NCBI RefSeq assembly: GCF_014773365.1
Contig: NZ_JACWUN010000001.1
Location: 62,001-126,000 of the forward strand
Reading direction: 5' to 3'
From: Pelovirga terrestris
GTDB lineage: Bacteria > Desulfobacterota > Desulfuromonadia > Desulfuromonadales > Geopsychrobacteraceae
Length of the DNA: 64,000 bases
How positions within the stretch are numbered: the stretch's first letter is position 1; each line of letters starts with the position of its first letter. The notes below the pieces were generated by a model. That model searched no databases. It was given only the letters and a program-made list of their open reading frames with translations, and was not told the DNA's origin. Made by a program: the position numbers and the translations under genes. Shown here piece after piece: positions 25,865 through 49,150 of this stretch.

Positions 25865-25894
25865 TTGCCATGTAGAAACTTTTGGTGGGATAAT
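25865..25894 (+). promoter_or_regulatory. Candidate promoter of ispH and the pfa-ole genes
   Basis: TTGCCA (25865-25870) and GATAAT (25889-25894) are 18 bases apart, about 100 bases before the ispH start. This is the best sigma-70-like match ahead of the long + strand gene run, but it is a weak prediction. Confidence 0.35.
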
Positions 25895-25993
25895 CCAGAG
25901 TTTATTGAAGTAACGACTTTTTAACTTGTTGCGACGAAAAGCTTGAACACTAACCAGTGATTTCGTGGGCAAAGACGAGGGTTTTTGAAATAT

Positions 25994-26848
25994 ATGAATG
26001 TCGTACGGGCGCGAAGTGCCGGGTTCTGTATGGGGGTCAGTCTGGCACTGCGCAAGCTCGATGAAATGATCGAAAAAGAAGGCACTTTCAGCGACAATAT
26101 CTATATCCTTGGGTCCATTATTCACAATCCGCAGGTGGTTGAGGAATATTCTGCCAAAGGGGTTATTACGGCTGAATCGCCTGACGATATCCCTCCCGGA
26201 TCTACCGTCGTTATTCGTGCTCACGGCATTCCCAAGCGGGTTCAGCAGTCCCTGATAAATCGCGGTATTCGTGTTGTTGATGCGACCTGTCCGAAAGTTA
26301 AAGATGCCTGTCTGCTGATTGAACAGCACACGGCAGATGATCGTATCCTCCTGTTGTACGGAGAGCAAACCCATCCCGAGGTGAAATGTCTGCTGAGCTA
26401 TGCTGCGTCGGGTTCCTTTGTTTTTGACAATTTGGACCAATGTCGCGCGCAGCCTCTTGATACCAGTAAAAAATACTGCCTTGCCGCCCAGACGACCCAG
26501 GATAAGGGGATTTTTGACGCGATCAGCGCTGACCTGGCGGGTCGCCAGGATCTCGACCTGACGGTGCTGCATACGATCTGTGACGCGACGAAAAAGCGCC
26601 AGGGGGAAGCAATTCGTATTGCTGAACAGGTCGACTTTATGATTGTTGCCGGCGGCTTTGAAAGCAGCAACACCCGGAGGCTGGCCCAGGTGATCGAATC
26701 GCATGGGACAAAAGCATTGCACGTCGAGACAGCGACGCAGTTACCACTGGATGAGTTGCGCTGCTATCAAAGTATCGGTTTGACTGCCGGCGCTTCGACC
26801 CCGAAACAGATTGTTGATGATATTCAGTCTTTACTGGAATCCCTGTAG
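25994..26848 (+). CDS. ispH: 4-hydroxy-3-methylbut-2-enyl diphosphate reductase
   Basis: 284 residues from the ATG at 25994 (a TTG at 25985 is in frame but puts extra residues before the conserved start). Iron-sulfur cysteines are seen in ARSAGFCMGV, DATCPKVKDA and HTICDATKKRQGEA; substrate His residues are in IIHNPQVVEEY and RAHGIP. It makes IPP and DMAPP at the end of the MEP isoprenoid pathway. It is a stand-alone LytB. It stops nine bases before pfaD, so it is probably on the same transcript as the lipid genes. Confidence 0.95.
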   Translation: MNVVRARSAGFCMGVSLALRKLDEMIEKEGTFSDNIYILGSIIHNPQVVEEYSAKGVITAESPDDIPPGSTVVIRAHGIPKRVQQSLINRGIRVVDATCPKVKDACLLIEQHTADDRILLLYGEQTHPEVKCLLSYAASGSFVFDNLDQCRAQPLDTSKKYCLAAQTTQDKGIFDAISADLAGRQDLDLTVLHTICDATKKRQGEAIRIAEQVDFMIVAGGFESSNTRRLAQVIESHGTKALHVETATQLPLDELRCYQSIGLTAGASTPKQIVDDIQSLLESL

Positions 26849-26857: not shown

Positions 26858-28468
26858 GTGAGTTTCACTTCTTTGAGCAGTGGCAGTCCAGTCGCCAGGC
26901 ATTTATCGAAGCATAAATCAACCGGTATATCTGATTTGCTGCGCACTATTTCCATGCCATTGTGGCTGATTAAATCAGACGGTCTGGTGCATCTGGTCGC
27001 GGATCAGGTCCCCAGGACAAAAGCAGAAGATAGTTTCGGCATGGTGCCTGCTTGTTTGCTGGATTCTTTAGGTAGCCGCTCTTTCTGTCATGATCACGGT
27101 GTGCAATACGCTTATGTCGGTGGCTCCATGGCCAAGGGGATCAGCTCGGTTGCTATGGTCAAGGCGTTGGGCGAGGCCGGCATGCTGGGGTTCTTTGGTT
27201 CTGCGGGTCTCTCCTTTGATCAGGTGGAGGCGGCGATCGATGAGCTCCAGCAGCATCGACCCGATATCCCTTTTGGCGTCAATCTGATTCACAGCCCGAC
27301 CGAGCCGGAACTGGAAAAAGCCTTGGTCGAGCTGTATCTGCGTCGAGGTATTCACCTGATTGAGGCCTCGGCCTTTTTAGGACTAACCTTGCCGCTGGTG
27401 CGCTATCGCACCCATGGTATTCACCGCGACGAACACGGCTGTGTCGTTGCCCCCAACCGCATCATTGCCAAGGTTTCGCGCGAAGAGGTGGCAGCGCGTT
27501 TTTTTGAGCCACCAGCGGAAAAGTTGCTCCAGCAATTAGTGGCTGCCGGTGATTTGACCAAAGAGCAGGCACATCTCGCTGGACACATTCCCATGGCTCA
27601 GGATGTTACGGCTGAAGCTGACTCCGGTGGACATACCGATAACCGTCCGGCCCTGTCGTTGTTTCCGACTCTGCTTGCCCAAAAAGACCAGATGCAGCAG
27701 CATTATGATTATCCTCAGCCATTACGCATCGGTCTGGGTGGCGGTATTGCAACCCCGGCGTCTGCGGCAGCTGCTTTTGCCATGGGTGCCGACTATCTGG
27801 TCACCGGGACGGTGAATCAGGCTTGTGTCGAGTCCGGAACCTGCGATGCCGTGCGGCAGATGCTGGCTGAAACCCGGCAGGCGGATATCACTATGGCACC
27901 TTCGGGTGATATGTTTGAGATGGGGGTCAAGGTTCAGGTGGTCAAGCGTGGCACCATGTTTGCCATCCGTGCCCACAAACTTTATGAGCTCTACCGTGCT
28001 TATGAGAGTATCGACGCCTTGCCGACTGCCGAACGGGAGAAGATTGAAAAGACCTTTTTTAAAGTGCCTCTTGACACGGTCTGGCAACAGACCCAAAGTT
28101 ACTTTCAGGTCCGTGATCCACGCCAGGTTGAAAAAGCTCTGAACGATCCAAAATACAAGATGGCACTGGTTTTTCGCTGGTATTTGGGACAAACGCCGGT
28201 GTGGGCCAACCAGGGGATTGCCGATCGGAAAATTGATTATCAGATCTGGTGTGGCCCAGCCATGGGAGCTTTTAACGAGTGGGTCAAGGGCAGCTTTTTA
28301 GAGCCACCCGCCGCCCGCAAGGTTGTGCCGGTCGCTTACAATATCCTTTTTGGCGCTGCGGTGTTGCAGCGTGTACGCTTACTTAAGCAGCAGTGGGGCA
28401 CGTATCGTGTCGATCCGAAGATCGCCACGCCATTGCCGCTTGAGCAGATCAAGGAGTTTCTCTGTTGA
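26858..28468 (+). CDS. pfaD: PUFA synthase enoyl reductase PfaD
   Basis: 536 residues, the usual PfaD size. It has a flavin-dependent TIM-barrel of the nitropropane-dioxygenase type, with GGSMAKGISSVAMVKALGEAGMLGFFGSAGLS near the start, PFGVNLIHSPTEPELE, GLGGGIATPASAAAAFAMGADYLVTGTVNQ and APSGDMFEMGVKVQVVKRGTMF. In PUFA synthases this protein reduces the trans-2-enoyl intermediate on the carrier domains of PfaA. The start is GTG with AGGAG ahead of it. In many pfa clusters pfaD is last; here it is first. Confidence 0.95.
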   Translation: MSFTSLSSGSPVARHLSKHKSTGISDLLRTISMPLWLIKSDGLVHLVADQVPRTKAEDSFGMVPACLLDSLGSRSFCHDHGVQYAYVGGSMAKGISSVAMVKALGEAGMLGFFGSAGLSFDQVEAAIDELQQHRPDIPFGVNLIHSPTEPELEKALVELYLRRGIHLIEASAFLGLTLPLVRYRTHGIHRDEHGCVVAPNRIIAKVSREEVAARFFEPPAEKLLQQLVAAGDLTKEQAHLAGHIPMAQDVTAEADSGGHTDNRPALSLFPTLLAQKDQMQQHYDYPQPLRIGLGGGIATPASAAAAFAMGADYLVTGTVNQACVESGTCDAVRQMLAETRQADITMAPSGDMFEMGVKVQVVKRGTMFAIRAHKLYELYRAYESIDALPTAEREKIEKTFFKVPLDTVWQQTQSYFQVRDPRQVEKALNDPKYKMALVFRWYLGQTPVWANQGIADRKIDYQIWCGPAMGAFNEWVKGSFLEPPAARKVVPVAYNILFGAAVLQRVRLLKQQWGTYRVDPKIATPLPLEQIKEFLC

Positions 28469-31400
28469 AAACCGATCAGCAAACGACAGATTCGACGATG
28501 ACACCGCTGGCGATTGTCGGCATTGGTAGTATGTTCCCTGACGCCGAGAATTCACAGCAGTTCTGGACCAATATCAAAACCGGCGTCGACAGTATCCGCG
28601 AGGTTCCTGCAAGTCACTGGCGCGCTGACGACTATTTTGATGCCGATCCCAAAACCAGGGATAAGGTCTACGCTAAACTGGGTGGTTTTTTATCGCCGGT
28701 CCGTTTTAACCCGATGGATTACGGGATACTGCCTAACGCTCTGGAGGCGATCGATACGTCGCAGCTGTTGGGCTTGCTGGCGGTGGAACAAGCGCTTCAG
28801 GATGCCGGTTACGGCGCCGGTAAAGAATATCATCGCGAACGAGTCAGTGTTATCCTCGGAGTGACCGGTACCCTTGAACTGGTTGTGCCCCTCGGCGCCC
28901 GTTTGGGGTACCCGCGCTGGAAGCAGGCGCTGGCTGAAGCTGGGGTGGATGAGGAGACAGCCGCTGATGTCATGGACCGGATCTCCGATTCCTATGTGCC
29001 CTGGCAGGAAAATTCCTTTCCCGGGTTGCTCGGTAATGTGGTGGCCGGACGGATCAGTAAACATTTCAATTTTGGCGGCACCAATTGCGTGGTTGATGCC
29101 GCTTGCGGCAGTTCGTTAAGCGCCCTGAATCTTGCTGCTCTGGAACTCGCCGCCGGACGCTCCGACATGGTGATCACCGGCGGGGTTGATACCTTCAATG
29201 ACATTTTCATGTACACCTGCTTCAGTAAAACACCGGCTCTGTCACCTTCGGGCCATGCCAAACCTTATTCTGACAACGCCGACGGCACCACTCTGGGTGA
29301 GGGATTGGGGGTGGTGGTTATCAAACGCCTGGCGGATGCCGAGCGCGATGGCGACCGTATCTATGCGGTGATCAAGGGGATCGGTGCTTCCAGTGACGGT
29401 CGCGGCTCTGCCATCTATGAGCCGAGCGCCCAGGGTCAGACCAGGGCCCTGCTGCGCGCCTATCAACAAGCCCAGGTAAGCCCTGCTACGATCGAGCTGG
29501 TTGAAGGGCATGGTACCGGCACCAAGGTAGGTGACGCCATTGAAGTCAATGCCCTGCGCCAGGTTTACGGAACAGCGCAACAGCCCTGGTGCGCCCTGGG
29601 TTCCATCAAATCTCAGATCGGCCATACCAAGGCGGCTGCCGGAGCTGCCGGACTGATTAAGGCGGCTCTGGCCCTCTATCACAAGGTGCTGCCGCCAACT
29701 ATCAAGGTGCAACAACCCGCCTCCGTGTTGCTTGAAAAGGATTCTCCCTTTTACGTCAATACCGAGTGTCGTCCCTGGTTTCCGGCCGGCAATCACCCCC
29801 GTCGGGCTGCGGTCAGCGCTCTGGGTTTTGGTGGCAGTAATTTCCACTGTCTGGTGGAAGAATACACAGAAGAAAAAAACGAGGTTGACTGGACCGGAGA
29901 TGTTCAGATTTTGCCGTTTTCTGCTGATGACAAGGCTACGTTGAAACATCAGCTGCAGGCGTTTCCTCATGATGCGCAGTGGCAGCAACTGCGTCTACTG
30001 GTTGCTCAAAGGCGCCTTGATTTTGATCGCCAGGCCCGGTGTCGACTGGTGATGGTGATTGAACGTGGCACCTTAAGTGAACCATTGGATATCGGTCGGC
30101 GAATTGATGCTGCTGTTGCCGTGCTCGATCAACCAAAAGAAGGGTGGCATGAAACCCCGGATGGAATCTATTTGTCGACCGACGAGCCAGCCGACAATAT
30201 CGCTTTTCTCTATCCTGGACAGGGGGCACAGTACCCGGGCATGCTCAAAACCCTGGCCTTACAGTTTCCCGAATTTCAGCGGGTGGTCAACGAAGCTGAT
30301 CAGGTTTTTGCGGAAAAGGCCCAGGTTCCGCGCCGGACCTTGACCGATCTGATCTATCCCCGTCCGGTTTATTCATCCGAACAACAGGAAGCAGCAGTCA
30401 CCGCTTTGCGCGCCACCGAAGTCGCTCAGCCGGTCCTCGGTGCGATGGAGTGTGCCGGTACTGCCGTGCTGCAACGTTTTGGTTTATCACCTCAAGCGGC
30501 TGCCGGGCACAGTTATGGTGAGCTGGTCGCTCTATGCCATGCCGGGGTTTTTAGTGCCGCCGATCTTCACCGTCTGTCACGCCTGCGTGGTGAATTGATG
30601 GCAGCCAAAGGCTCTGAGCGTGGCACTATGCTGGCAGTGTCGGCACCACTTGATGCTATCAGTAAATTTATCCAGAGTGAACATCTCGACCTGGTACTGG
30701 CCAACCGTAATACCCCGGAGCAAGGCGTGTTATCGGGCTCCCATGCTGAAATCGAGCGCGCTCGGGCGGCACTAGCCGGACAAGGTGTTTCCTGTGCCCC
30801 CTTGAGTGTAGCGGCGGCCTTCCACAGTCCTCTGGTGGCAACTGCGGCCCAGCCTTTTGCCCAGGCGCTGGAAACAACGACCCTGACCGCGCCGGCTTTC
30901 CCGGTCTATGCCAACACCAGTGGCGATCGCTACCCCCAGGACGTCGGCGAGCTCAGGTCGCTGCTGGCGCGACAACTTGCCAGTCCCGTTGATTTTGTCA
31001 CAGAGATCGAAGCCATGTATCGCGATGGCCTGCGAATCTTTGTTGAAGTGGGCCCGGGGGCGCGTTTAAGTGGCATGGTCAGAACGATCCTCAAGGGCAA
31101 GGATATTCAAACCCTGGCCCTCGATTCTTCTAACGGCAAACGCTGTGCCCTGGTTGATCTGGCCCGCCTGTTGGCAAAATTAGCCGCCCTTGGGGTGACT
31201 GTTGCCTTGACCTCATGGGATGAAAATGTCCTTGAGCAGGCAGCGCAACAACCGGTCAGGAAGAAAGGGTTAACCGTTACCCTGACCGGTGCCAACCATT
31301 TCAACAAACCGCAACCGCGTCCACCGCGGCAGCAGAAAATGGCCGGAAAAAGTGTCATTCCATCATCTCAGCCACAAGAACAGCAAGAGGAAATACCCAT

Positions 31401-34400
31401 GCCCGATCAACAAGTCCGGCCTCCAGTAACCACGACGTCCCAAGCTAGGCCGGCGCCTGTCCCGGATAGCGGATTGTCGGCAGCGTTGCGCCTGAGCCAG
31501 CAGAATATTGAGGCCTTGCAGTCGATCTCGCAGCAGACGGCCAAACTCCATCAGCAGTTTCTCGAGGGACAGCAGGCCGCAACCCGATCCTTCATGCAGT
31601 TGGTTGAGCAGCAGCGACAACTGCTCGGCGGAAGGGCCATTACTCCCGCTGTGCCGGTGGCCATTGCTGAGGCTGTTCCCTCAATAGCTACGCCGCCGGT
31701 TGCTGAACAACCAGCACCGTCTGAATTGACCCCTCCTCCTGTCACCGCCGACCCTGTAGCAGATCCTTCGCCGATTTCCGGTACACCCGCAAGCCATATT
31801 ACCAGCGCGTTGCTCGCTGTCATCGCCGAGAAGACCGGTTATCCGGTGGAGATGCTGGAGCTGGGGATGTCGCTGGATGCCGATCTGGGGATCGACTCAA
31901 TCAAGCGGGTCGAGATCCTCTCGGCCCTGCAGGAACGTCTGCCGGAACTGCCGGCGGTCAAGCCGGAAGACCTGGGCGTATTACAGACCCTGGGGCAGAT
32001 TGTTGACCACCTGCAGCAAGGTGCTGCAGGGACGGTCACCGGCCCGGGAAGCAGCGGAGCGGCAGCAGATGCGGGCGCTGATACGGGTAAGGTGACGTCG
32101 GCGTTGCTCGCTGTCATCGCCGAGAAGACCGGTTATCCGGTGGAGATGCTGGAACTGGGGATGTCGCTGGATGCCGATTTGGGGATCGACTCAATCAAGC
32201 GGGTCGAGATCCTCTCGGCCCTGCAAGAACGTCTGCCGGAACTGCCGGCGGTCAAGCCGGAAGACCTGGGCGTATTACAGACCTTGGGGCAGATTGTTGA
32301 GCACTTGCAGCAAGGAACAGCAGGGATGGCAAAGACCGCTGGTATGACAGTGTCAACAGGGGTGGCTGGTCCGCAAGTGACCACCGCGCTGCTTGCTGTC
32401 ATCGCCGAGAAGACCGGTTATCCGGTGGAGATGCTGGAACTGGGGATGTCGCTGGATGCCGATCTGGGGATCGACTCAATCAAGCGGGTCGAAATCCTCT
32501 CGGCCCTGCAGGAGCGTCTGCCCGCATTGCCGGTGGTTAAACCGGAGCATTTGGGCACCTTGCAGACCATCGATCAGATTGTCGATTTTCTCAGCAGTGT
32601 CTCCGGCTCGGAAAAAGCGGCTTTAACCCTTCCAGACCGGGAGTCCGAGCCGTTGCCGATCATCAAGCGGCAGGAGGTTTGCCTGGCCAGTTTGCCTAAG
32701 AAAAGACCAGTTAAAAGCTTTTCTTTTGGCGCCGGAGCCCAGGTCTGGATCACTGATGATGGCTCAGCCCTGATTGATGCCCTGGCGACAGCCTTAACCC
32801 GCCATAACCTGATTGCACGAAAGGTCAAGCTGACTGACATTACCACCCTGGATGCTCCGGCAAACCTGTGTGGCCTGCTGATCGTTGCACCCCTTAAAGG
32901 CTGTAATGATCACTTTATCGCCGAGAGTTTTCAGTTGTTGCAGTTGGCCGCTCCCCAGTTGCGCAAGCAGGGAACTGGTCAGGGAGCTTTTTTTGCTACC
33001 ATTTCGCGCCTTAACGGCAGCTTTGGTCTGCCCGCACGTTCCGGCTTTGGCGACCCCCTCTCTGGGGGATTGGCCGGTTTGAGTAAAACGGCGGCTCTGG
33101 AGTGGCCTGAAGTTCACTGCAAGGCTCTGGACCTGGGCTTGGGGATGGAGGTTGTTCCGGCAGCGACGACTCTGGTCGAAGAAATCTTTACGACAACCCC
33201 CCTTGAGATTGGGGTGTCGTCAACCGGTTTGACTACTTTGGAGCTGGTGTCTGAGGACGTTACTGTTGATACCCGGGAGTTGGCGCTGGAAGAAGGGGAC
33301 CTGGTTGTGGTGAGCGGCGGTGCTCGCGGTGTTACCGCGGCTGTTTCCGTCGCTCTGGCACGTAAATATCGTCCCACCCTGGCATTGCTGGGACGCAGCC
33401 CGCTCCCTGCGGATGAGCCGGATTGGCTGAAGGGCCTGGATACGGAGGCAGAAATAAAAAAGGCGGTGTTGGCTCATACTGATAACCCTCCGGCGCCGAA
33501 AGAATTGCAGCAACAGTATGACCAGATTCTGGCTGGACGTGAGATTCGTTCTACCCTTGACGATATTCTCAAGGCGGGCGCCACACCTTTGTATCTACCA
33601 GTCGATTTACGCGATGAGCAGGCGGTAACTGCTACCATAAACAACCTGCAAGAGCAGTATGGCGCGGTTAAAGGTGTGATCCATGGTGCCGGGGTGCTGG
33701 CAGATAAGTTGATTGTGGATAAGAGCCGTGAACAGTTTGCTGCGGTCTATGATACCAAGGTCAGAGGATGTCGCCATCTGCTGGCGGCCATTAACGTCGA
33801 CCAGCTCGCATTTCTGGTCATGTTTTCTTCATCAACCGCTCGCTTCGGTCGTATTGGCCAGGCCGATTATGCTATTGCCAATGAAGTATTGAACAAAATA
33901 GCCCAGCAATTTGCCCAGAGTCATCCCGAAACCAGGGTGTTATCCATGAATTGGGGCCCTTGGGATGGCGGTATGGTGAACGCTGCGTTGAAAAAAATGT
34001 TTGCGCGCGAAGGGATCGAGGTGATCGATCTGCAGGCTGGTGCGGCTTATCTGCTCAAGGAATTGACTGCGACAGACAAGACCGTTGAACTGGTCATTGC
34101 CGGAGGTCATGCCCAGGATGCGGTTACTGAAGAGCCTGAGCCGGCGCAGAACCTGTACCTTTCAAGCGCTTTTGATCTCGATCTGAACATCGATCAATTT
34201 CCCTTGCTCAAATCCCATGTTATTGACGGTAAAGCGGTTGTGCCCGCGGCATTGATGGTTGAATGGCTGGCTCATGCCGCGGTGCATAATCATCCGGGGC
34301 TTAAATTCCAAGGGTTTAATGATTTCAGGGTGCTTAAGGGAATTATTCTTGAAGCGGGGCAGACCTACAATCTGCAAGCGATGACCGGCAAGGCGATCAA

Positions 34401-35022: not shown

Positions 35023-35024
35023 TA

Positions 35025-38000: not shown

Positions 38001-41000
38001 CTGTGTCTGACGCTGGTCATAGAAACGCCTGCCGAATTGAATGCCCAGCTTGACCAGGTGGCTCGCCACCTCGAACGTCTTGCCGTTGATAAATCCCTGA
38101 GGTTCGCTGATTTGTTATCTCCGGCACAACGTGAACGGGTATTTTTCAGCGCTGACCCCCTGGCGACGCAAGGGAAGATCGCCTTTATCTTTCCCGGATC
38201 CGGCAATCATTTTGCCGGGATGGGGCGCGATCTGGCAGCGCGGTGGCCGGAAGTCTATGGTGCCCAGGAAGCCGCCAATTCCTGTCTGGCCGATCAGTAT
38301 CAGCCCCATCTTTTCTGGAAGAGTGCTCTAAGTGATGCGCTATTGGAAGATCATAACGCCCTGGTTATTTCCCATGTATCCCTGTGTACTGCCCTCCACG
38401 ATCTGCTCAGCCGATTCGCCATCAGGCCCCAGATGGTCAGTGGTTACAGCCTTGGTGAATCTTCCGGGTTATTTTCAACCGGTGCCTGGCGCGAGCGTGA
38501 TGCCATGCTGCAGCGCCTTAAGGATTCACCGCTGTTTACCAGCGAGTTAGCGGGTGAATGTCACGCCGCCCGCCGGACCTGGGGATTGCCCCCCGGTCAG
38601 CAGGTTGACTGGTGTCTGGGAATTGTTAATGTTTCGGCTGATCAGGTCAAAAAGATTCTGGCCGGCAAAAAACAGGTATATTTGTTGATTGTCAACACCT
38701 ACAAAGAGTGTGTGATTGGCGGCCGGCGACGTCAGGTTGACCTGGCGGTTAAGGAACTGGGCTGTCATTTTATCCCCTTACAGGGGGTCACAACGGTTCA
38801 TTGTGAAGTAACCAGAGCGGTGGCGGACGCCTATCGTAACCTTCACCTGTTTGACGTCAGGGCACCGCGAGGTATCGATTTCTACAGCTGTGCTTTTGGC
38901 GGAAAATATCCCCTGACCACCACCAATGCCGCCGACGCGATTCTGGCCCAGGCTCTCGACACCATTGACTACCCACGAGTGATCGAACGTTTGTATGCTG
39001 ACGGCGCCAGAATCTTCCTTGAAGTTGGGCCTGGCTCGTCCTGTACGCGGATGATTTCCAGTATCCTCGGTGAGCGTCCTCATCTGGCCCGTTCTTTCTG
39101 TGTCGCGGGACAAGATGCGTCGGTGCAGTTTCTGCGCTTGTTGGGGCACTGCCTGGCTGAAGGGGTCAAGCTGGATCTGTCACCACTCTATCCAGCCGAC
39201 AAGGGCGAATTGCCCGTCAGTACTGGTCGAAGCCCACAGATTGTTACGACTACCGGGGGCGCTGCTTTTGCTCCAACGCTACCCGTTACAAATAATCCGG
39301 CTCCCCGGGTTGATCTGCCGCCGGCGGCAACGGCTAACGAAGCTCCTGGTTTACCCCCGGCACCACAGCAACTTCCTGTGGCCCTGCAAGCTGTAACCCA
39401 TGAGGACTCTGTGCCGGCCCAGTTAACCATCGGATTTCGTGATGTTCATACCGCTGGAGCAGCGGCCCATGCGGCCTTCCTGGAACTCTCTGCGGACCTT
39501 GAACGCTCCCTGGCTGAGCAGATTGGGTATCAGCAGGCTCTGTTACAACAAGCGGATGGCACCTTGTTTGACCTGGATCAGTCATTCTTCCATCAAGATC
39601 CCTATAGGGATCAATCTTCACCGCCGCTTGCTCAGGGGGCAGCACTGGAACCGGAGGGTAAGGGGGGTACCCCGGTTTTTGACCGCCAGCAGTGTATGGA
39701 ATTTGCGGTCGGATCGGTGGCCGGAATGCTTGGTCAGGAGTTTGCCGAGGTTGATACCTTCCCAACCCGGGTACGACTGCCCGATGAGCCGCTGATGTTG
39801 GTTGACCGGATTGTTGCCCTTGAAGGTGAGCCGCGCTCTATGTCCTGCGGACGGGTGATCACCGAACATGATGTGACGGCGGATCGCTGGTATCTTGATG
39901 GTGGTCGCATCCCCACCTGTGTCGCGGTCGAAGCCGGTCAGGCTGATTTGTTTCTGTCGGGTTATCTCGGGATCGATTTTATCACCAGAGGGCTGGCGGT
40001 TTATCGATTGCTCGATGCGGTGGTCACCTTTCATCGAGGGTTGCCGACGGTCGGTGAAACGATCCAGTATGATATTCATATCGATAGATTTTTTCGACAG
40101 GATCAGACCTACCTGTTCCGTTTTCATTTTGAGGCGACGGTCAATGGTGAACCATTACTGAGTATGCGTGATGGTTGTGCCGGATTTTTTAGTGCGGCAG
40201 AGTTGGCGGCCGGCAAGGGGATCGTCCATACCCGCCTTGATCTTCTGCCGCAACCGGGTCGCATGCCCGCTGATTGGCGGCAGTTGGTGCCAATGGCCGT
40301 TGAATCCTATAACGATACCCAGGTTGCGGCCCTTTATGCCGGTGATCTGGCCGGCTGTTTTGGCCCTTGTTTTGCAGATTTGCCCCTGAACAGGCCCTAT
40401 ACCCTGCCGGGCGGCAAATTGAAACTGGTTGATCGGGTGATTGTGCTTGACCCTGAAGGTGGACGCTACGGCCTCGGCCAGATTCGGGCGGAAATGGACA
40501 TTCAGCCCGATGCCTGGTTTTTGACCTGTCACTTTGTTGATGATCGGGTCATGCCGGGGACCTTGATGTACGAATGCTGTATGCACACCTTGCGGATCTA
40601 CCTGCTGCGCATGGGGTGGATCGGTGAGAACGGTGCCACCTGGTGTGAACCTGTACCCGGAGTACAAAGTGGTTTGAAGTGTCGCGGTCAAGTCATTGAA
40701 ACGACGAAAAAAGTCACCTATCAGGTGAGCATCAAGGAACTGGGTTACCGCCCGGAGCCCTATGCTATTGTCGATGCCCTGATGTTTGCCGATGACCATC
40801 CGATCGTCGAAATTCCTGATATGTCAGTACGCTTGAGTGGTCTTGATCGTTCCAGGGTTGAGGCCTTATGGCAGCGTCAGTCATCATCGGTAAATCATCA
40901 AGATCGCCAGGTTCTCTACGACCGTGAACGGATCACCGCCTTTGCCGTCGGCAACCCATCTGACGCATTTGGTGAACCCTACCGGATGTTTGATCAGGAA

Positions 41001-41987
41001 CGCAAAATTGCGCGTTTGCCCGGACCACCGTTCCAGTTTCTCGACCGGATTGTTGATGTTAAAGGTCAGCCGTGGAAGCTGGTTGAAGGAGCAGCTGTCG
41101 TAGCAGAATATGATGTGCCGCCGGATGCCTGGTACTTTACTGCCGGACGGCAACCGGAAATGCCCTTTAGTGTACTGCTTGAAATCGGCCTGCAACCCTG
41201 TGGCTGGCTTGCGGCCTATCTGGGCTCGGCCTTGACCAGCGATACCGATCTGTCATTCCGCAATCTGGATGGTCAGGCGACCCAGCACAAAGCGGTGACG
41301 CCGACTAGTGGCACTCTTACGATCAAGGTGGAGATTACCCGGATTGCCAGTAGTGGCGGGATGATCATCCAGGGATACACTTTTAATGTGCATGACAGTG
41401 ATGGTCCGATTTACACCGGCACCACTGTGTTCGGGTTCTTTTCAGCGGCCGCACTGGCTCAGCAGGTCGGCGTAAGGGGGGTAACAAGCTGGCAACCACC
41501 GCCAGAGCAGATCGGCCGAGCCGGAACCTTTGAGTATCCGGTCGCACCACCATTCCCCGATACGATGCTGCGCATGGTTGACACAATTGACCTGTATCTT
41601 CCCGACGGTGGCCCGCACCAACGAGGATTTATCCGTGGCAGCAAAATAGTCGATCCCGATGAATGGTTTTTTAAGGCGCATTTTTATCAGGATCCGGTCT
41701 GTCCCGGCTCACTTGGGCTTGAGTCTTTTCTGCAGTTGCTCAAGGTCGTCGCCGCTGAGCGCTGGGGCCTATCTGCCGACAGCCGCTTTGAAACCATGGC
41801 GCTTGGGGTGGACCATCGCTGGAATTACCGTGGCCAGATTATTCCGACCAATCAGCGCGTCGAGATCGAAGCGCTGATTACCGCGGTTGATGATCAGAAC
41901 AGAACCCTTAAGGCGGATGGTCTGTTGTCGGTGGATGGTAAAATCATCTATCAGATGAAAGATTTTGCCCTACGTCTTCACGGTTGA
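35025..41987 (+). CDS. pfaC: PUFA synthase PfaC with a built-in PfaB-type acyltransferase
   Basis: 2320 residues. Ketosynthase 1 (about 5-450) with Cys194 in LDAACASSL, and His in ECHATGTP and KANIGHLLTAAG. Chain-length-factor-like ketosynthase 2 (about 470-920), where the Cys position is Glu670 (SSEENSSL). Acyltransferase (about 1045-1360) with Ser1142 in GYSLGESSG, like PfaB. A Pro-rich linker (1380-1440). Four tandem hotdog domains follow (about 1550-2320): domains 2 and 4 keep the FabA-type catalytic His (His1836 in TCHFVDDRVMPG, His2219 in KAHFYQDPVCPG), domains 1 and 3 look like pseudo-domains. This is the dehydratase layout known from PfaC. It follows pfaA by two bases. No separate pfaB exists here. 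Confidence 0.93.
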   Translation: MAYAQSVAVVAMGGEFPDAATLDDYWELILKKRNCARRPPAGRWLLPVEEIYHPEVGAADRVYSDKACFLADPAVSSDLPGLNIDAGFLRQLDPMFRLLLRVGQQTLTSAGTPSFDPSRAGVIIGNLALPSETSSALARQLLGKAFAEKLTDQPLSVHEDPIVPQNHHVAGLPAAVLARGLGFGGTCFTLDAACASSLYAIKLAVDELLSGRADLMLAGGVSRPDSLYTQMGFSQLRALSASGRCAPFDRSGNGLVVGEGCGLLLLKRTRDAQRDGDRILAVIRGIGLSNDLQGNLLAPSSEGQLRAMRAAYRQAGWQPSDVDLIECHATGTPVGDAVEFSSLQQLWGNSGWRSGQCVIGSVKANIGHLLTAAGAAASIKTILALSHRTLPPQTHFEQPAAGVDLDRSPFRLLGQACPWHQRRDEVPRRAAVSAFGFGGINAHMLLEEWQPERATRKKVTLHPSFSARQTPIAVVGLAAHYGPWSELQGLRQRFFGVDDKTKSVTPSHWWGGGESRWLQQIFPQGLPQGFCLGQIGAAAGEFRIPPNEIAEMLPRQLLMLKVAAAALHNADADHDDHLFTGVFIGCGLDHNATNFSFRWGLAQQARIWAQELGFKLTEDELSAWIAGLREAAGPALTANRTMGALGSVVASRIAREFGVGGPSFTISSEENSSLRALEVAIHALQEGSIKRALVGAVDLAADLRDVVCRQQLTPFSGAGYSRPLDRESQGIQLGEGAGALVLKRLEDARQDGDQIHAVVSGIGTAIGGAADQLLPLADVLRKAVTQACNSAAVKPADIGYLEVDGSGDPEADLLEAVTLSEVLGGGNRNSSCWLGSVKADIGHAGGAAGMAAVIKAVLCLKQRLLPPVRSLTALRSEWITSPPVYQVADAPQYWLTNRVAGVRRAMVTALGNDGSCSALIVEEHQGNLPAPGVDRPLGDLAAGLFALNADSLAGLGAKLTELKQLAAQYHDECCDQLARRWYRNHPPPTDVSLCLTLVIETPAELNAQLDQVARHLERLAVDKSLRFADLLSPAQRERVFFSADPLATQGKIAFIFPGSGNHFAGMGRDLAARWPEVYGAQEAANSCLADQYQPHLFWKSALSDALLEDHNALVISHVSLCTALHDLLSRFAIRPQMVSGYSLGESSGLFSTGAWRERDAMLQRLKDSPLFTSELAGECHAARRTWGLPPGQQVDWCLGIVNVSADQVKKILAGKKQVYLLIVNTYKECVIGGRRRQVDLAVKELGCHFIPLQGVTTVHCEVTRAVADAYRNLHLFDVRAPRGIDFYSCAFGGKYPLTTTNAADAILAQALDTIDYPRVIERLYADGARIFLEVGPGSSCTRMISSILGERPHLARSFCVAGQDASVQFLRLLGHCLAEGVKLDLSPLYPADKGELPVSTGRSPQIVTTTGGAAFAPTLPVTNNPAPRVDLPPAATANEAPGLPPAPQQLPVALQAVTHEDSVPAQLTIGFRDVHTAGAAAHAAFLELSADLERSLAEQIGYQQALLQQADGTLFDLDQSFFHQDPYRDQSSPPLAQGAALEPEGKGGTPVFDRQQCMEFAVGSVAGMLGQEFAEVDTFPTRVRLPDEPLMLVDRIVALEGEPRSMSCGRVITEHDVTADRWYLDGGRIPTCVAVEAGQADLFLSGYLGIDFITRGLAVYRLLDAVVTFHRGLPTVGETIQYDIHIDRFFRQDQTYLFRFHFEATVNGEPLLSMRDGCAGFFSAAELAAGKGIVHTRLDLLPQPGRMPADWRQLVPMAVESYNDTQVAALYAGDLAGCFGPCFADLPLNRPYTLPGGKLKLVDRVIVLDPEGGRYGLGQIRAEMDIQPDAWFLTCHFVDDRVMPGTLMYECCMHTLRIYLLRMGWIGENGATWCEPVPGVQSGLKCRGQVIETTKKVTYQVSIKELGYRPEPYAIVDALMFADDHPIVEIPDMSVRLSGLDRSRVEALWQRQSSSVNHQDRQVLYDRERITAFAVGNPSDAFGEPYRMFDQERKIARLPGPPFQFLDRIVDVKGQPWKLVEGAAVVAEYDVPPDAWYFTAGRQPEMPFSVLLEIGLQPCGWLAAYLGSALTSDTDLSFRNLDGQATQHKAVTPTSGTLTIKVEITRIASSGGMIIQGYTFNVHDSDGPIYTGTTVFGFFSAAALAQQVGVRGVTSWQPPPEQIGRAGTFEYPVAPPFPDTMLRMVDTIDLYLPDGGPHQRGFIRGSKIVDPDEWFFKAHFYQDPVCPGSLGLESFLQLLKVVAAERWGLSADSRFETMALGVDHRWNYRGQIIPTNQRVEIEALITAVDDQNRTLKADGLLSVDGKIIYQMKDFALRLHG

Positions 41988-42080
41988 TGGCTGCTGAACG
42001 GCTGGTGCTTCACCTGCCGGGTAAATTATGTTACAAGATGCCCTGGTATTTGATAGGTTTGAAGTTTCGCTAATGCACCG

Positions 42081-42180
42081 GATCTTTGGATTCTATGTCA
42101 AGGGACGCTTTTCGTCATCCCTGACCGCTTGTTGTCGCCGTCCCTGGCGACAGACACCCTTGTCACAGGAACCCCGATCC
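42081..42180 (+). repeat. Dispersed hairpin element, copy 2, ahead of oleA
   Basis: The same core as copies 1 and 3 (TCTATGTCAAGGGACGC ... CCCTTGTCACAGGA) with inner hairpin TTGTCGCC/GGCGACA at 42132-42152. It fills much of the 276-base gap between pfaC and oleA, which is the only sizeable gap within the pfa-ole run. Frames through it that join oleA are not conserved protein. Confidence 0.8.
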
Positions 42181-42263
42181 AGCACAAGGCCATAGCTGAA
42201 CAACATTCATTAGACCCACTACTTGAAGCGGGGCAGTTTAAAAACAATGAAGTTCATTTATCA

Positions 42264-43307
42264 ATGAAATATACCCGTGTCCACATTGAATCGGTCGGTT
42301 ATGAACTGGCCCCCATTGTCGTCACCTCGACTGAGCTGGAACATCGGATAGCACCGGTCTATAAAGCCCTGCACATTGCCCCGGGACAGTTGGAATCGTT
42401 GACCGGAATTCGTGAGCGGCGCTGGTGGAAGCTAGGCACACCTATCTCTCATGGTGCCATTGCAGCGGCCAAAAAATCCCTGCAGGAACGTAATATTGCT
42501 GCTGAAGATATTGGTGCGGTGGTTTATGCCGGGGTCTGTCGTGAACATTTTGAACCCGCTACCGCCTGTCTGGTTGCTTCGGCACTAGGCATTCGAGGCG
42601 ATGCGGCAATCTACGATATTTCAAATGCTTGTCTCGGTGTTTTGAATGGAGTACTTGATATAGCCAACCGGATTGAGCTGGGGCAGATCCGTGCCGGATT
42701 GGTGGTTGCCTGCGAAAGTTCGCGCGAAATCAATGAGATCATGATTCAGAAGATGCTCGACCATCCGACCATGCCCCTGTTTACCCAATCCCTGGCGACC
42801 CTGACCGGTGGTTCCGGTGCTGCTGCGGTATTATTGACCGATGGTTCTTTTTCCCCCTCACGCAGACCAAAGCTGCTGGGAGGCGTGAACGTTGCTGAGC
42901 CCCAGTACCATGAACTGTGTCGCTGGGGTCTGACCCAGGAGTCTGCCGCCTGTCAGCAGCCGTTCATGCAGACTGATGCCGTCGCTGTCATGAAGCACGG
43001 GGTTGAACTGGGTAAACGGACCTGGGAGCTTTTCAGCAGTAAGCTCGGCATCACGGCAGATAAAATCGACAAGGTTATTTGCCATCAGGTCGGAGAAGCG
43101 CATCAGCGGCTGATTCTCCAGAACCTTGGTATTGATCCGGCGAAGGATTTTCAAACCTTCGAGTTTCTCGGTAATATGGGCACCGTGTCCCTGCCGATCA
43201 CTGCGGCTATCGCCAAAGAGCGCGATCTGCTGCGCCCTGGTGACCTGGTCGGCTTTCTTGGTATCGGCAGTGGTCTGAACTGTCTGATGATGGCTATTCA
43301 ATGGTAA
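42264..43307 (+). CDS. oleA: OleA, head-to-head acyl-CoA/acyl-ACP condensing thiolase
   Basis: 347 residues from the ATG at 42264, where family-like sequence begins (MKYTRVHIESVGYELAP); upstream codons in the same frame lie in the repeat element. Thiolase-fold: nucleophile Cys123 in SNACLGVLNG, His in VICHQVGEAHQR, Asn in LGNMGTVSLP. Glu97 in REHFEPATA sits 26 residues before the Cys, exactly as Glu117/Cys143 in Xanthomonas OleA, the base that starts the Claisen condensation. It joins two acyl chains into a 2-alkyl-3-keto acid. There is no strong Shine-Dalgarno sequence; a six-codon frame (42247-42267) ends on the start codon. Confidence 0.92.
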   Translation: MKYTRVHIESVGYELAPIVVTSTELEHRIAPVYKALHIAPGQLESLTGIRERRWWKLGTPISHGAIAAAKKSLQERNIAAEDIGAVVYAGVCREHFEPATACLVASALGIRGDAAIYDISNACLGVLNGVLDIANRIELGQIRAGLVVACESSREINEIMIQKMLDHPTMPLFTQSLATLTGGSGAAAVLLTDGSFSPSRRPKLLGGVNVAEPQYHELCRWGLTQESAACQQPFMQTDAVAVMKHGVELGKRTWELFSSKLGITADKIDKVICHQVGEAHQRLILQNLGIDPAKDFQTFEFLGNMGTVSLPITAAIAKERDLLRPGDLVGFLGIGSGLNCLMMAIQW

Positions 43308-44218
43308 TCGATTCTCCGCTGTTTAAATCCGAATATCCCTTTAAAAGCAATTTTCTCGACCTGAATGGTCTGGCTTATCATTATCTTGATGAAGGCAAAG
43401 GATCACCGGTGGTTATGCTCCATGGTAACCCGACCTGGTCGTTCTACTATCGTAATCTCGCGCGCCAACTTAGCAAGCGTCATCGCGTGATTGTGCCGGA
43501 TCATATCGGCTGTGGTCTATCGATGAAACCGGCCGATTCCCTTTATCGCTATCAGCTCAAGCAACGGGTCGATGATCTTGAGCGGCTGATTGATCATCTT
43601 GATTTGCCGGAAAAAATCACTCTGGTTGTTCATGATTGGGGGGGGATGGTCGGCTTGGCCTGGGCGATTCGCCACCCGCAGCGCCTGGCGCGACTGGTGC
43701 TGATGAATACCGCTGCGTTTCATTTGCCCGCCGGTAAAAAACTGCCATTAGCCTTGAAAATCTGTCGCGATACCCAGCTCGGTGTTTTTCTGGTGCAGGG
43801 TTTCAACCTCTTTGCCCGCGCTGCTGCCAAGGTCGGATGCCAGCGCACCCCGATGCCGGCGGAACTCCGTCAACTCTATTGCAGCCCTTATGACAACTGG
43901 CAACACCGGATCGCTACCTTACGTTTTGTTCAGGATATTCCCCTTCAACCTGAGGACCCCAGTTATGCTCTGGTGAGCGATGTTGAGATGGGCCTGGCCC
44001 AGTTTGACAAGATACCGGTCTGTATTCTTTGGGGGGAGAAAGACTTTGTCTTTGATCAACATTTTCTACGGGAATGGGAAAAACATCTTCCTCAGGCCGA
44101 GGTGCATCGTTTCCCCGACTGTGGCCATTATGTCCTGGAAGATGCAACCGAAGAGATCATTCCCATCATCCGTGACTTTTTGCGGAAATACCCGCTGGAA
44201 AAGCGCCCTGCCAACTAA
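43301..44218 (+). CDS. oleB: OleB, beta-lactone decarboxylase (alpha/beta hydrolase)
   Basis: 305 residues. An alpha/beta hydrolase of the haloalkane-dehalogenase type: oxyanion-hole HGNPTWSFYYRNL, the nucleophile is Asp in VVHDWGGMVGLAW, a late acidic residue (ILWGEKDFVFD) and His in PDCGHYVLED. In the olefin pathway it releases CO2 from the beta-lactone made by OleC and leaves a cis double bond. The ATG overlaps the oleA stop by seven bases. Other Asp-nucleophile hydrolases look alike, but the position between oleA and oleC decides. Confidence 0.93.
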   Translation: MVIDSPLFKSEYPFKSNFLDLNGLAYHYLDEGKGSPVVMLHGNPTWSFYYRNLARQLSKRHRVIVPDHIGCGLSMKPADSLYRYQLKQRVDDLERLIDHLDLPEKITLVVHDWGGMVGLAWAIRHPQRLARLVLMNTAAFHLPAGKKLPLALKICRDTQLGVFLVQGFNLFARAAAKVGCQRTPMPAELRQLYCSPYDNWQHRIATLRFVQDIPLQPEDPSYALVSDVEMGLAQFDKIPVCILWGEKDFVFDQHFLREWEKHLPQAEVHRFPDCGHYVLEDATEEIIPIIRDFLRKYPLEKRPAN

Positions 44219-45885
44219 TGAGTTCCGAATCCTTCGGTAATATTGCCGCTTATCTCCCGGCCATGGCCAAACGTCAACCGGATACGGTTGCGGTATATTG
44301 TCCGGTCGGGCGTTTCTCGCCCCAGCAACGCTATTCTCGCTATACTTACGCTGAACTTGATTGTCAGAGTAATCGCATGGCAGCGGTTCTAGCTCATCTT
44401 GGCATCGGTCGTGGCGTCCGGACGGTGTTGATGGTGACCCCCAGTCTGGAATTTTTTGCTTTAACCTTCGCCCTGTTCAAGGTTGGAGCGGTGCCGGTGC
44501 TGGTTGATCCCGGCATGGGGACAAAAAACCTGAAAACCTGTCTCGCAGAAGCGCAACCAACAGCGTTTATTGGTATCCCCAAAGCCCATTTGGCACGCCG
44601 CTTGTTGGGTTGGGCGCGTTCTACCCTGACGGTTAAACTGACGACCGGGCCGCGATTATGGTTTGATGAACATTCCCTGCCCAATCTCCTCGCCGGGACT
44701 GACAAGCAGGTGACATGCACGCCGATTGATCCTGCGTCTGATGAGACTGCTGCTATTCTTTTTACCAGCGGTAGTACCGGTGTTCCCAAAGGGGTGGTCT
44801 ATACCCACCAGAATTTTATCGCTCAGGTACAAGCCCTTAAAGATATCTACCAGATCCAACCCGGAGAAATTGATCTGCCGACTTTTCCTCTTTTTGCCCT
44901 TTTTGCACCGGCTCTGGGTATGACCGCGGTGATTCCGCAGATGGATTTTGCCCGCCCGGGAGAAGTCGATCCACAAAAGATTATCAGCGCCATCAAGCGT
45001 TTTGAAGTGACGACCATGTTTGGGTCACCGGCTTTGATCCGCCGGGTGGCTGTTTTTGGTAACCAGCATGGCGTTACGTTGCCGACCCTCAAGCGAGCGA
45101 TCTCCGCCGGGGCCCCGGTGGCCGCGACAACCCTTGTGCAGTTCAGTCGTCTGCTGACTGAAGACGCACGTATTTTTACCCCCTATGGTGCGACTGAAGC
45201 TTTGCCGGTCTGCTCGATTGACAGTGCCACCATTCTTGGTGAAACCCGTCAGTTAACGGATCAGGGGCACGGGGTATGCGTTGGTCGACCGGTACCGGGG
45301 GTTGAGGTTGGTGTCATCCCCATCTGTGATGAGGCAATAGATCCGTTTGATAACGAATCATTGCTTGCTGTGGGCCGGATTGGTGAAATTATCGTTACCG
45401 GTCAGCAGGTGACCCGTTCCTACTTCAACCGGGCAGAATCAACCCGGCTGGCGAAGATTGCCGATCCTGCCAACCAACGGTTTTTTCACCGCATGGGCGA
45501 CCTTGGTTACCGTGACGTCATGGGACGAATCTGGTTCTGCGGGCGCAAATCTCACCGCGTCATTACTGAACAAGAGACCTTGTTCACCATCCCCTGCGAA
45601 GGGGTTTTCAATACCCATCCCCAGGTGTTTCGCACCGCACTGGTTGGTGTAGAAAGTGGCGGCAAGAGAGTGCCACTCATCTGCGTTGAACTCGAAGCTG
45701 GGATCCCTCGCGCCCAGCATCAGCAGATTATTCTCGATCTGCGTGACATCGCTGCCAAATTTCCGCATACCACTCAGATTGAACGGTTCCTGATCCATCC
45801 GGCCTTTCCTGTCGATATTCGCCACAATGCCAAAATTTTCCGTGAAAAGCTGGCGGTATGGGCCCAGCAGCAGCTGACAGCATGA
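44218..45885 (+). CDS. oleC: OleC, AMP-dependent beta-lactone synthetase
   Basis: 555 residues of the acyl-adenylate-forming superfamily. ILFTSGSTGVPKGVVYTHQNF is the phosphate-binding loop; TPYGATEALPV is the A5-type motif; MGDLGYRDVMGRIWFCGRK is the hinge region. In OleC the final Lys and CoA step are dispensable because the beta-hydroxyl group attacks the adenylate to give a lactone. The start codon shares its A with the oleB stop (TAATG), so coupling is tight. Confidence 0.93.
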   Translation: MSSESFGNIAAYLPAMAKRQPDTVAVYCPVGRFSPQQRYSRYTYAELDCQSNRMAAVLAHLGIGRGVRTVLMVTPSLEFFALTFALFKVGAVPVLVDPGMGTKNLKTCLAEAQPTAFIGIPKAHLARRLLGWARSTLTVKLTTGPRLWFDEHSLPNLLAGTDKQVTCTPIDPASDETAAILFTSGSTGVPKGVVYTHQNFIAQVQALKDIYQIQPGEIDLPTFPLFALFAPALGMTAVIPQMDFARPGEVDPQKIISAIKRFEVTTMFGSPALIRRVAVFGNQHGVTLPTLKRAISAGAPVAATTLVQFSRLLTEDARIFTPYGATEALPVCSIDSATILGETRQLTDQGHGVCVGRPVPGVEVGVIPICDEAIDPFDNESLLAVGRIGEIIVTGQQVTRSYFNRAESTRLAKIADPANQRFFHRMGDLGYRDVMGRIWFCGRKSHRVITEQETLFTIPCEGVFNTHPQVFRTALVGVESGGKRVPLICVELEAGIPRAQHQQIILDLRDIAAKFPHTTQIERFLIHPAFPVDIRHNAKIFREKLAVWAQQQLTA

Positions 45886-46883
45886 TATTGGTCACCGGTG
45901 GGCGCGGTTTTCTTGGTGGTGCTATTGTCCGCCTGCTGTCGCAACAGGGTGAACAGGTACGCTCTTTGGCACGGCATCATTCAGCTGAACTGGATGCCAT
46001 TGGGGTCGAACAGTTTATCGGCGATTTGACTAACCAGGCTCTGGTGGATCGGGCGGTTCGTGGTTGTGACCTGGTCTTTCATGTCGCGGCCAAGGCCGGG
46101 GTCTGGGGCCGCTACGGCGATTTTTACCGCAGCAATGTTATCGGCACGCAAAACGTCATCACCGCCTGTCGCAAAATTGGTGTAACGCGTCTCGTTTATA
46201 CCAGCTCGCCAAGTGTTGTCTTTGATGGTACCGACATGGGAGGGGTGAACGAGTCGATTCCCTACCCGCATCATTTTCATGCCAGTTATCCGCAAACCAA
46301 GGCCCAGGCCGAACAGCTGGTTCTGGCGGCCAATGGCGATCAGCTTGCGACGGTAGCACTGCGCCCCCATCTGATCTGGGGGCCGGGGGACAATCATCTG
46401 GTTCCAAGGATCCTGGAACGTGGACGGAGCGGTCAGCTGCGGCGCATCGGCAAAGGGGACAACCTGATCGATGCGGTCTATATTGATAATGCCGCAACCG
46501 CACATCTGCAAGCCGCGCAGCAACTGGCGATCGGTTCCCGGGTTGCCGGCAAGGCATATTTTATTGCCAACAACGAACCGATTCCGCTGTGGGACCTGGT
46601 CAATCAGATCCTCGCAGCCGACAATCTGCCGCCGGTCACCAGAACCATCTCACCGCGGCTTGCCTATCTGGCCGGAGCGATACTGGAAATAATCTACAAA
46701 AATCTGCGCCTGGCGGGGGAGCCCCGCATGACCCGGTTTGTCGCTCGTGAGCTTGCAACTGCTCACTGGTTTGACCTTTCCGCCGCCCAACGTGATTTCG
46801 GCTATCTACCGCAGGTCAGTATTGAAGAGGGGATGGCGCGACTGCGGCATTGGTTGCAGCAGGAGCCGTTAGGTGGGCGTTGA
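45882..46883 (+). CDS. oleD: OleD, NADPH-dependent 2-alkyl-3-keto acid reductase
   Basis: 333 residues from the ATG at 45882, which overlaps the oleC stop (ATGA); a frame-extended start at 45858 would begin inside oleC with no support. It is an extended SDR: ILVTGGRGFLGGAIV, VFHVAAKAGVWGRYGDFY, YTSSPSVVFDG and the catalytic YPQTKAQAE. It reduces the product of OleA to the beta-hydroxy acid used by OleC. Its last codons overlap the PPTase gene by 11 bases. Confidence 0.93.
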   Translation: MILVTGGRGFLGGAIVRLLSQQGEQVRSLARHHSAELDAIGVEQFIGDLTNQALVDRAVRGCDLVFHVAAKAGVWGRYGDFYRSNVIGTQNVITACRKIGVTRLVYTSSPSVVFDGTDMGGVNESIPYPHHFHASYPQTKAQAEQLVLAANGDQLATVALRPHLIWGPGDNHLVPRILERGRSGQLRRIGKGDNLIDAVYIDNAATAHLQAAQQLAIGSRVAGKAYFIANNEPIPLWDLVNQILAADNLPPVTRTISPRLAYLAGAILEIIYKNLRLAGEPRMTRFVARELATAHWFDLSAAQRDFGYLPQVSIEEGMARLRHWLQQEPLGGR

Positions 46884-47556
46884 GATAGCGCCCTGGCAGG
46901 CACCGCCAGCGTCCTTACTGATTGGGACTGGAGACCTTCATCTGTGGCGTTTTCGTACCGACATCTCTGCCCGCACTGCTGATACTCTGCGCCAATCACT
47001 CTCTGCAGATGAATGTGCCCGCGCTGATCGGTTTATAAACCCTCGGCATCAATTACGATTCATTGCCGCCCGGTACCGGTTGCGACGGACTCTTGCCGGA
47101 TACCTGAAGTATTTGCCTGCTTCAATTGTTTTTACTAACAGTCAGCAGGGGAAACCTTCTCTGGGCAAGGAGCATCGGTCAGACATTAATTTCAATCTGT
47201 CCCACTCGGGGGACTGGGCCGTACTCGCTGTGACCTCCGGGCCTGACGTCGGTGTTGATGTCGAAGAAATAGTGGTTAAAGACAATGTGCAACCATTGAC
47301 TGACTATGCTTTTAATGAGGTTGAAAAGACGTTGTTCTCCGCCTTTCCTCCAGCTCGCAAACAACGCGGATTCTACCGCCTGTGGACAGCTAAAGAGGCC
47401 AGGTTGAAAATGCTGGGTATCGGGTTGGGCGAGATGAAAAAGGAAATCATGCCGGGGTTTGGGTGTTTTTTTGTTCCGGCAAAAGGCTATGTCGCTGCCG
47501 TTGCGGTTACTTGTCAGGTGGCTCGGATTATTCGTTATCATGATGCGATGAATTAA
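46873..47556 (+). CDS. Sfp-type 4'-phosphopantetheinyl transferase (PfaE role)
   Basis: 227 residues. NFNLSHSGDWAVLAV, GVDVEEI (magnesium-binding acidic pair) and FYRLWTAKEARLKMLGIGL are the family motifs of Sfp/EntD-type PPTases. It would attach the pantetheine arm to the three carrier domains of PfaA. The start is GTG and lies inside the end of oleD, so it belongs to the same transcript. The usual PfaE is a family member of this size; the symbol is left blank because orthology rests on context. Confidence 0.92.
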   Translation: MGVEIAPWQAPPASLLIGTGDLHLWRFRTDISARTADTLRQSLSADECARADRFINPRHQLRFIAARYRLRRTLAGYLKYLPASIVFTNSQQGKPSLGKEHRSDINFNLSHSGDWAVLAVTSGPDVGVDVEEIVVKDNVQPLTDYAFNEVEKTLFSAFPPARKQRGFYRLWTAKEARLKMLGIGLGEMKKEIMPGFGCFFVPAKGYVAAVAVTCQVARIIRYHDAMN

Positions 47557-49048: not shown

Positions 49049-49150
49049 GTTGACTTATTGTCTGCCGCTTGTTGTAAACGGAAGGATTTTATCCTTGACA
49101 CTCTACGGTCTATTTGGTACTTCAATCTCCACGCCCGATCGGCGCATATC

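Follow-up and report, generated by a model that had tools for sequence, protein, structure and literature searches.

The pfa genes of a polyunsaturated fatty acid (PUFA) synthase and the oleABCD genes stand next to each other in the window, that is, the whole 64,000-nucleotide stretch of DNA that was analysed, which raises the question of whether the two gene sets form one pathway to a polyunsaturated hydrocarbon (PUHC) or serve different products. The results favor a Type I Pfa-Ole PUHC cluster, in which Pfa is predicted to build a polyene and Ole to join two such chains into a C31:9-type product, and we assign this reading a probability of about 0.85. The eight genes that had been read from the letters alone, from pfaD to the Sfp-type phosphopantetheinyl transferase (PPTase) gene, are confirmed in direction and order by open frames and family profiles, all on the plus strand within 26858-47556. 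They are listed here with the features that flank or separate them.

25865-25894, +, promoter-like site before ispH, TTGCCA-18-GATAAT with TG ahead of the second hexamer (10/12 consensus match only)
25985-26848, +, ispH (LytB) (PF02401, E 2e-77)
26858-28468, +, pfaD, enoyl reductase (TIGR02814, 632 bits, cut-off 449)
28465-35022, +, pfaA (TIGR02813, 1588 bits, cut-off 1010; Pfam domains)
35025-41987, +, fused pfaB/C (Pfam at E 0.001; TIGR02816 pfaB_fam, 89.8 bits, below the cut-off of 144.3)
42009-42037, +, conserved promoter-like element in the pfaBC-oleA gap, core TTCACC-N14-TGTTACAA (shared with relatives)
42264-43307, +, oleA, head-to-head condensing thiolase (NF006720, 476 bits, cut-off 285)
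43301-44218, +, oleB, alpha/beta hydrolase related to haloalkane dehalogenases (haloalkane dehalogenase models below cut-offs)
44218-45885, +, oleC, AMP-forming beta-lactone synthetase (NF006754, 751 bits, cut-off 478)
45858-46883, +, oleD, 2-alkyl-3-oxoalkanoate reductase (NF042422, 454 bits, below the cut-off of 580)
46873-47556, +, Sfp-type PPTase, pfaE role (PF01648 and PF22624 above cut-off)
49232-49263, +, strong terminator-like hairpin downstream of the following gene (47669-49048), perhaps the 3' end of the unit (13 pairs and a T tail, consensus match only)

A chance assembly or mis-called genes can be ruled out, because every frame is open and the profiles match over most of its length. 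Most of the tight junctions are also as first described: TTGA joins pfaD to pfaA, TAATG forms the stop-start overlap of oleB and oleC, and ATGA lies at the oleC/oleD junction at 45882. The letters TAATG are likewise present at pfaA/pfaBC, but the actual stop is a TGA two bases earlier. The 276-base gap between pfaBC and oleA stands, given the oleA start at 42264; oleA has to begin at this ATG and not at the upstream TTG, since the OleA profile sets in only at residue 46 of the extended frame. The ATG at 45882 is more likely the oleD start than 45858, and the NF042422 match starts at residue 10.

Pfam matches show that PfaA contains KS, MAT, three ACP, KR and PKS-type DH domains, and its active-site motifs appear intact by eye in the translation. 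The pfaB/C product contains a KS, a chain-length-factor-like second KS, a PfaB-like AT and a FabA-like DH region, as judged from Pfam and the translation, and its chain-length factor has, by eye, Glu at the Cys position. PfaA and PfaD pass their curated cut-offs and tandem ACPs are present, which marks the system as a Pfa (PUFA) synthase; the AT part of the fused protein falls below the curated PfaB cut-off. The location of KS, second KS, AT and DH in one frame, in a deltaproteobacterium-like host, is the Type I trait. By eye, the PPTase motifs QGKP (P1a) and FNLSH (P1b) fit the PUFA-type patterns x(G/D)xP and (F/S)NxSH, and its P0 motif, LRQSLS, differs from the pattern hRxhLS at one position; its score with the HetI model is 147 bits, below the cut-off of 370. 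For a PfaT candidate, the PF03061 thioesterase family has six matches in the genome and none within the 64-kb window. Comparison of two of these proteins with solved structures gives other or general thioesterases, with no Orf6 or PfaT among the 20 and 17 matches listed, and another of the six is PaaI-like, under the cut-off of that model.

An alignment of OleA with the solved chain 3row, which we take to be Xanthomonas OleA, spans nearly the full protein (E 2e-55). Glu97, Cys123, His274 and Asn304 are identical in all 62 OleA sequences compared, and Glu97, His274 and Asn304 are presumably catalytic or partner residues. An OleA with the catalytic Cys, His and Asn and the partner Glu, together with adjacent oleB, oleC and oleD genes, conforms to the OleABCD pathway. 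OleB has no dedicated model among its profile matches; its HDWGG nucleophile motif and late His look intact by eye, and by analogy it would be the beta-lactone decarboxylase. OleC matches the olefin beta-lactone synthetase models over their full length, with scores of 703 and 666 bits that fall short of the required 900 and 850, and OleD matches the narrow model NF042422 over its full length at a score below the cut-off.

On the basis of these assignments, the PPTase would arm the three PfaA ACPs, and PfaA, fused PfaB/C and PfaD would build the polyene with no need for oxygen. OleA would condense two polyenoyl chains, by analogy 16:4 chains handed over from the PfaA ACPs. OleD would then reduce the beta-keto acid, OleC would close the beta-lactone and OleB would remove CO2, yielding a C31:9-type hydrocarbon that is probably located in the membrane. 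In Escherichia coli, OleA and Pfa together give a 31:8 ketone without the acyl-CoA synthetase FadD (Allemann 2019, PMC6463001). Such a pathway would make an extremely unsaturated hydrocarbon with no need for oxygen. As to the role of this product in cells living far from oxygen, oxygen protection or an antioxidant function in anaerobes is termed speculative by Yoshida 2016 (PMC4882568). The sequence-only reading had treated the host as an anaerobe in which oxygen-dependent desaturation is impossible. The genome has no match to the PF00487 desaturase family, in line with this premise, but it encodes an aa3-type-like and a cbb3-type-like haem-copper oxidase subunit I (L098, L099), both slightly under the narrow-model cut-offs. 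With two terminal oxidases encoded, the host is not plainly a strict anaerobe, and the premise has to be softened. Type I clusters are described as going with obligate anaerobes (Shulse & Allen 2011, PMC3098273).

A contig scan with the window's OleA found 58 loci, and 44 of these were grouped as Desulfuromonadales-like by an OleA identity of at least 74%. By OleA, Desulfuromusa kysingii (85%) and Malonomonas rubra (83%) are the closest species with a name. In the comparison of gene order in Desulfuromonadales, which had been suggested as a check, pfaC is found upstream of oleA in 33 of the 44 loci; six (L042, L054, L062, L066, L069 and L089) have no pfaC within at least 3 kb, and the upstream sequence of L040, L055, L057, L067 and L072 is too short to judge. 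In three of the 33 (L039, L056 and L058), pfaC is reached only past 3.9-8.5 kb of other sequence. Among the loci of other groups, 9 of 14 have pfaC upstream (L073-L077, L079, L082-L084), and the two halves are linked more closely in six loci from Planctomycetota and Gemmatimonadota (L075, L077, L079, L082, L083 and L084), with a 4-base overlap of pfaC and oleA. The titles and abstract openings listed from the open-licence literature do not name Gemmatimonadota as pfa-ole carriers. A search of a plasmid collection for close OleA relatives returned 97 records, all below 60% identity, the ten rows listed being at 25-28%. In L036, L038, L043 and L045-L048, a same-strand gene of 461-463 aa, of one family, lies between pfaC and oleA, and by eye its product resembles a dihydrolipoamide-dehydrogenase-type flavoprotein. 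In the close relative L033 (7502-9858), the pfaBC frame is seemingly broken in the DH region and followed by a separate 199 aa frame, possibly through a draft-assembly error.

Transcription appears more complex than the single transcript first proposed. One transcript across pfa and ole can be inferred from the tight junctions, but the conserved promoter-like element before oleA leaves it unsupported as stated; in addition, several relatives have oleA at a distance from pfa, and ispH may be part of the upstream unit. This gene, missed by the sequence-only reading, ends 9 bases upstream of pfaD and is possibly the first gene of the transcription unit. It adjoins pfaD in 21 of 30 pfaD loci with our own locus counted (20 of the 29 others); the exceptions are L007, L008, L009, L012, L016, L020, L021, L030 and L031, among which L009 ends at a contig edge and L012 has pgsA at that place and no ispH. 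Both co-regulation and a merely ancestral insertion site are conceivable for this adjacency. An extra, pathway-specific copy of ispH is ruled out; the gene is the sole match in the genome and is therefore most likely a housekeeping gene. In the region upstream of ispH, five promoter-like sites were found against 3.6 expected from shuffling, close to the chance number, and terminator-like hairpins in the region number 14 against 9.1 expected. With ispH upstream and the hairpin beyond the next gene, the unit may exceed its proposed limits at both ends. At 47669-50925, a GSDH-like gene follows the PPTase gene; a relative of it lies downstream in 14 of the 58 OleA loci, 13 of which also carry the next two genes, the second of these belonging to the MEMO1 family.

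A consensus scan of the pfaBC-oleA gap found no plus-strand promoter or terminator. The core of the element, TTCACC-N14-TGTTACAA at 42009-42036 in this gap, is unique in the 64-kb window and absent from 100 shuffles. When the four closest gaps (the window, L033, L034 and L035) are compared, about 30 bases align well and most of the remaining sequence does not. The set examined for this element comprised 41 regions, from the window and from 40 Desulfuromonadales-like loci (all 44 except L072, L080, L089 and L090). A slightly relaxed form precedes oleA in 16 of these regions, whereas 200 shuffles gave 0.26 on average and never more than 2. Of the other 25 regions, 14 contain a sigma-70-like pair starting 64-79 bases upstream of oleA, against an average of 0.15 and at most 2 over 300 shuffles. 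Since the sequences had been inspected before the motif patterns were drawn up, the shuffles control base composition only. The remaining 11 regions comprise five with only a CCATGTTACAAAC-like box (at most two mismatches) and six with none. A genome-wide search for a regulon with TTCACC-N13-15-TGTTACAA gave one exact match, so no regulon is demonstrated. At 42009-42025, we noticed by eye an imperfect inverted repeat, TTCACC-TGCCG-GGTAAA, which is perfect in L035 (TTCACC/GGTGAA) and could be an operator. Judged by its conservation, the element is a probable additional promoter of ole in Desulfuromonadales. Two overlapping units are probable, namely (ispH-)pfaD-pfaA-pfaBC and oleABCD-PPTase, the second of which would be helped by a separate promoter within the 276-base gap. 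The element makes separate regulation of hydrocarbon synthesis and the polyene synthase testable.

We compared the presence of pfaD and OleA, both scored above profile cut-offs, across genomes. Among 60 relatives, our own genome included, pfaD occurs in 32 and OleA in 31; 30 genomes have both, two have pfa only, one has OleA only and 27 have neither (Fisher p 1.6e-13, a value that, like all our Fisher tests of pfa/ole co-occurrence, ignores kinship). In a phylum sample of 395 genomes, the counts are 25 with both, 7 with pfa only, 18 with OleA only and 345 with neither; among the genomes listed from the window's class they are 9 both, 8 neither and 0 mixed, the kinship-ordered list of genomes without a match moving on to the wider phylum after those eight. 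The single OleA-only relative (G030) carries pieces of PfaA. The two pfa-only relatives, G017 (about 470 pieces) and G031 (84% complete), have no OleA over the cut-off and no OleD match, and G050 (73% complete), one of the 27 scored as having neither, holds a piece of OleA that stays under the cut-off and an OleD, without PfaD or PfaA. Half of the genomes with both genes (15/30) have pfa and ole on one contig, 14.7-16.9 kb apart, and 15/30 have them on different contigs; some of the latter reflect fragmentation, while contig sizes indicate that the genes are probably truly apart in G037, G041 and G057.

These counts bear on the alternative that survives best, in which the main product would be EPA/DHA-like phospholipid fatty acids and Ole would divert only a part, as in Shewanella, which makes both EPA and hydrocarbon from Pfa and Ole (PMC6463001). 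The introduction of Yoshida 2016 (PMC4882568) likewise states that C31:9 producers simultaneously make EPA or DHA, and every Pfa domain type is present, so that no sequence feature forces a stop at 16 carbons. Against this, pfa and ole are nearly inseparable among the relatives, and no family of the glycerol-phosphate acyltransferase (AGPAT) type is among the Pfam matches of pfaBC at E 0.001. Myxobacterial Pfa3 ends in an AGPAT-type domain. We consider a mainly EPA/DHA-like output possible but rather unlikely, and since the PUHC reading does not claim the hydrocarbon as the sole product, the odds of the two overlap. That the main product may not be EPA/DHA, as the sequence-only reading had suggested, is plausible.

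The lineage of OleA provides a further line of evidence. A 51-row tree combines the window, ten named loci and OleA sequences from 40 genomes of the phylum sample. In that sample 43 genomes are OleA-positive, the remaining three being G000, which is the window, G003, for which L035 stands in, and G432, which was omitted. The window's OleA falls in a 26-row clade with a support of 100/100. Twenty-five rows of this clade come from pfa-positive loci or genomes and one (L081) is unassigned for pfa, a proportion to be read with the fact that nine of the ten named loci were picked for a linked pfaC and are not a fair sample. Among the phylum-sample rows of the tree, the clade includes 15 of 22 from pfa-positive genomes and none of 18 from pfa-less genomes; the seven pfa-positive rows outside it belong to two other families. 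Long branches were flagged, for example L109, which is pfa-less and stands beside the clade, and L086, likewise unassigned for pfa and with a very long branch, was inside the clade in the first tree and was dropped from the second. Ten alignment columns split 37 clade members from 25 others, with Trp221 in 37/37 versus 0/25 and Gly182 also diagnostic; any deep clade shows such columns, so these residues mark a lineage and do not prove a substrate. Gene content, co-occurrence and the OleA tree give good support to the proposal that Pfa and OleABCD act in one pathway to a polyunsaturated hydrocarbon, and this pathway fits the published chemistry of Geobacter bemidjiensis. Together, co-occurrence and the clade offer a candidate sequence marker for OleAs that take Pfa chains.

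The same tree weighs on a second alternative, in which ole would act on chains from ordinary type II fatty acid synthesis, the product of pfa would be some unrelated lipid and their adjacency would be historical. Xanthomonas olefins derive from type II fatty acids (PMC6463001, introduction), the ole genes here have their own promoter-like element and are apart from pfa in some relatives, and no pfa is present in 18 of the 43 phylum-sample genomes with OleA. However, pfa and ole co-occur even when they are on different contigs, and all 18 OleAs of pfa-less genomes fall outside the window's clade, so we regard a type II origin of the chains as very improbable. An end of the pathway at a beta-lactone or ketone and not at an olefin is the least credible alternative, with hardly any weight left to it. 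In its favor, some OleACD clusters without OleB are likely producers of beta-lactones (PMC7064751); against it, oleB is present here with intact-looking catalytic motifs.

Some observations count against the PUHC reading itself. Photobacterium profundum SS9 has neighbouring pfa and ole genes and no detectable PUHC (PMC6463001); the pfa-only genomes G017 and G031, the genome G050 and the 7 of 22 pfa-positive OleAs outside the clade do not fit a strict coupling; and OleB, OleC, OleD and the PfaB part stay below narrow-model cut-offs. Desulfotalea psychrophila makes C31:8 and C31:9, and its investigators found no Pfa-type synthase (Rattray 2009, PMC2649909), so Pfa may not be the sole road to such a product. 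In the phylum sample, 18 of 395 genomes have OleA and no pfaD above the cut-off (L100-L117), and 11 of these 18 OleAs form one clade in the first tree; together with the Desulfotalea products, these genomes point to a possible other route in the phylum to hydrocarbons of this kind. Extending the PUHC reading, we tentatively suggest, as a conjecture with the odds against it, that OleAs specific for polyenes form a distinct lineage, recognisable by some ten diagnostic residues, which has travelled with Pfa over at least three phyla, and that ole in Desulfuromonadales keeps its own promoter, which would let the cell control the amount of hydrocarbon separately from the making of polyenes, possibly for living at the oxygen edge.

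The cluster type is already in print, and the present case is a further example of a known pathway. Type I clusters, defined by a fused pfaBC, are described from Desulfuromonas acetoxidans, Geobacter, Pelobacter propionicus and Gemmata (Shulse & Allen 2011, PMC3098273). Of the 80 genomes with synthases of this kind in the same paper, 44 have ole genes, which are often linked; the paper also describes hentriacontanonaene from G. bemidjiensis and proposes that Type I clusters supply olefin synthesis. For this species, a strict anaerobe that produces C31:9, the published order is pfaD, A, B, C, oleA, B, C, D, pfaE (Yoshida 2016, PMC4882568). With the Type I description and an identical gene order both published, the pfa-ole combination is not new. 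The present analysis adds the counts of co-occurrence, the clade of OleA, the conserved element in front of oleA and the position of ispH next to pfaD; neither ispH in front nor the promoter-like element was found in the accessible text of the open-licence literature on such clusters.

Compared to known systems, the cluster of G. bemidjiensis Bem is the same as the present one in genes and order, with the PPTase last and pfaBC fused by the definition of Type I, a likeness taken from the published gene order. Shewanella (S. oneidensis and S. pealeana; PMC6463001) has the same enzyme set, and the catalytic Cys of its OleA is also residue 123; unlike here, Shewanella also makes EPA, has a separate pfaB (Type A) and is assisted by pfaT, whereas the present cluster contains no PF03061 thioesterase gene. 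Type L clusters, described from Sorangium, Plesiocystis, Streptomyces and others, share with the present cluster pfaD as the first gene and a fused pfaBC, but their domain order is KS-CLF-DH2-AT, whereas here the AT precedes the DH region.
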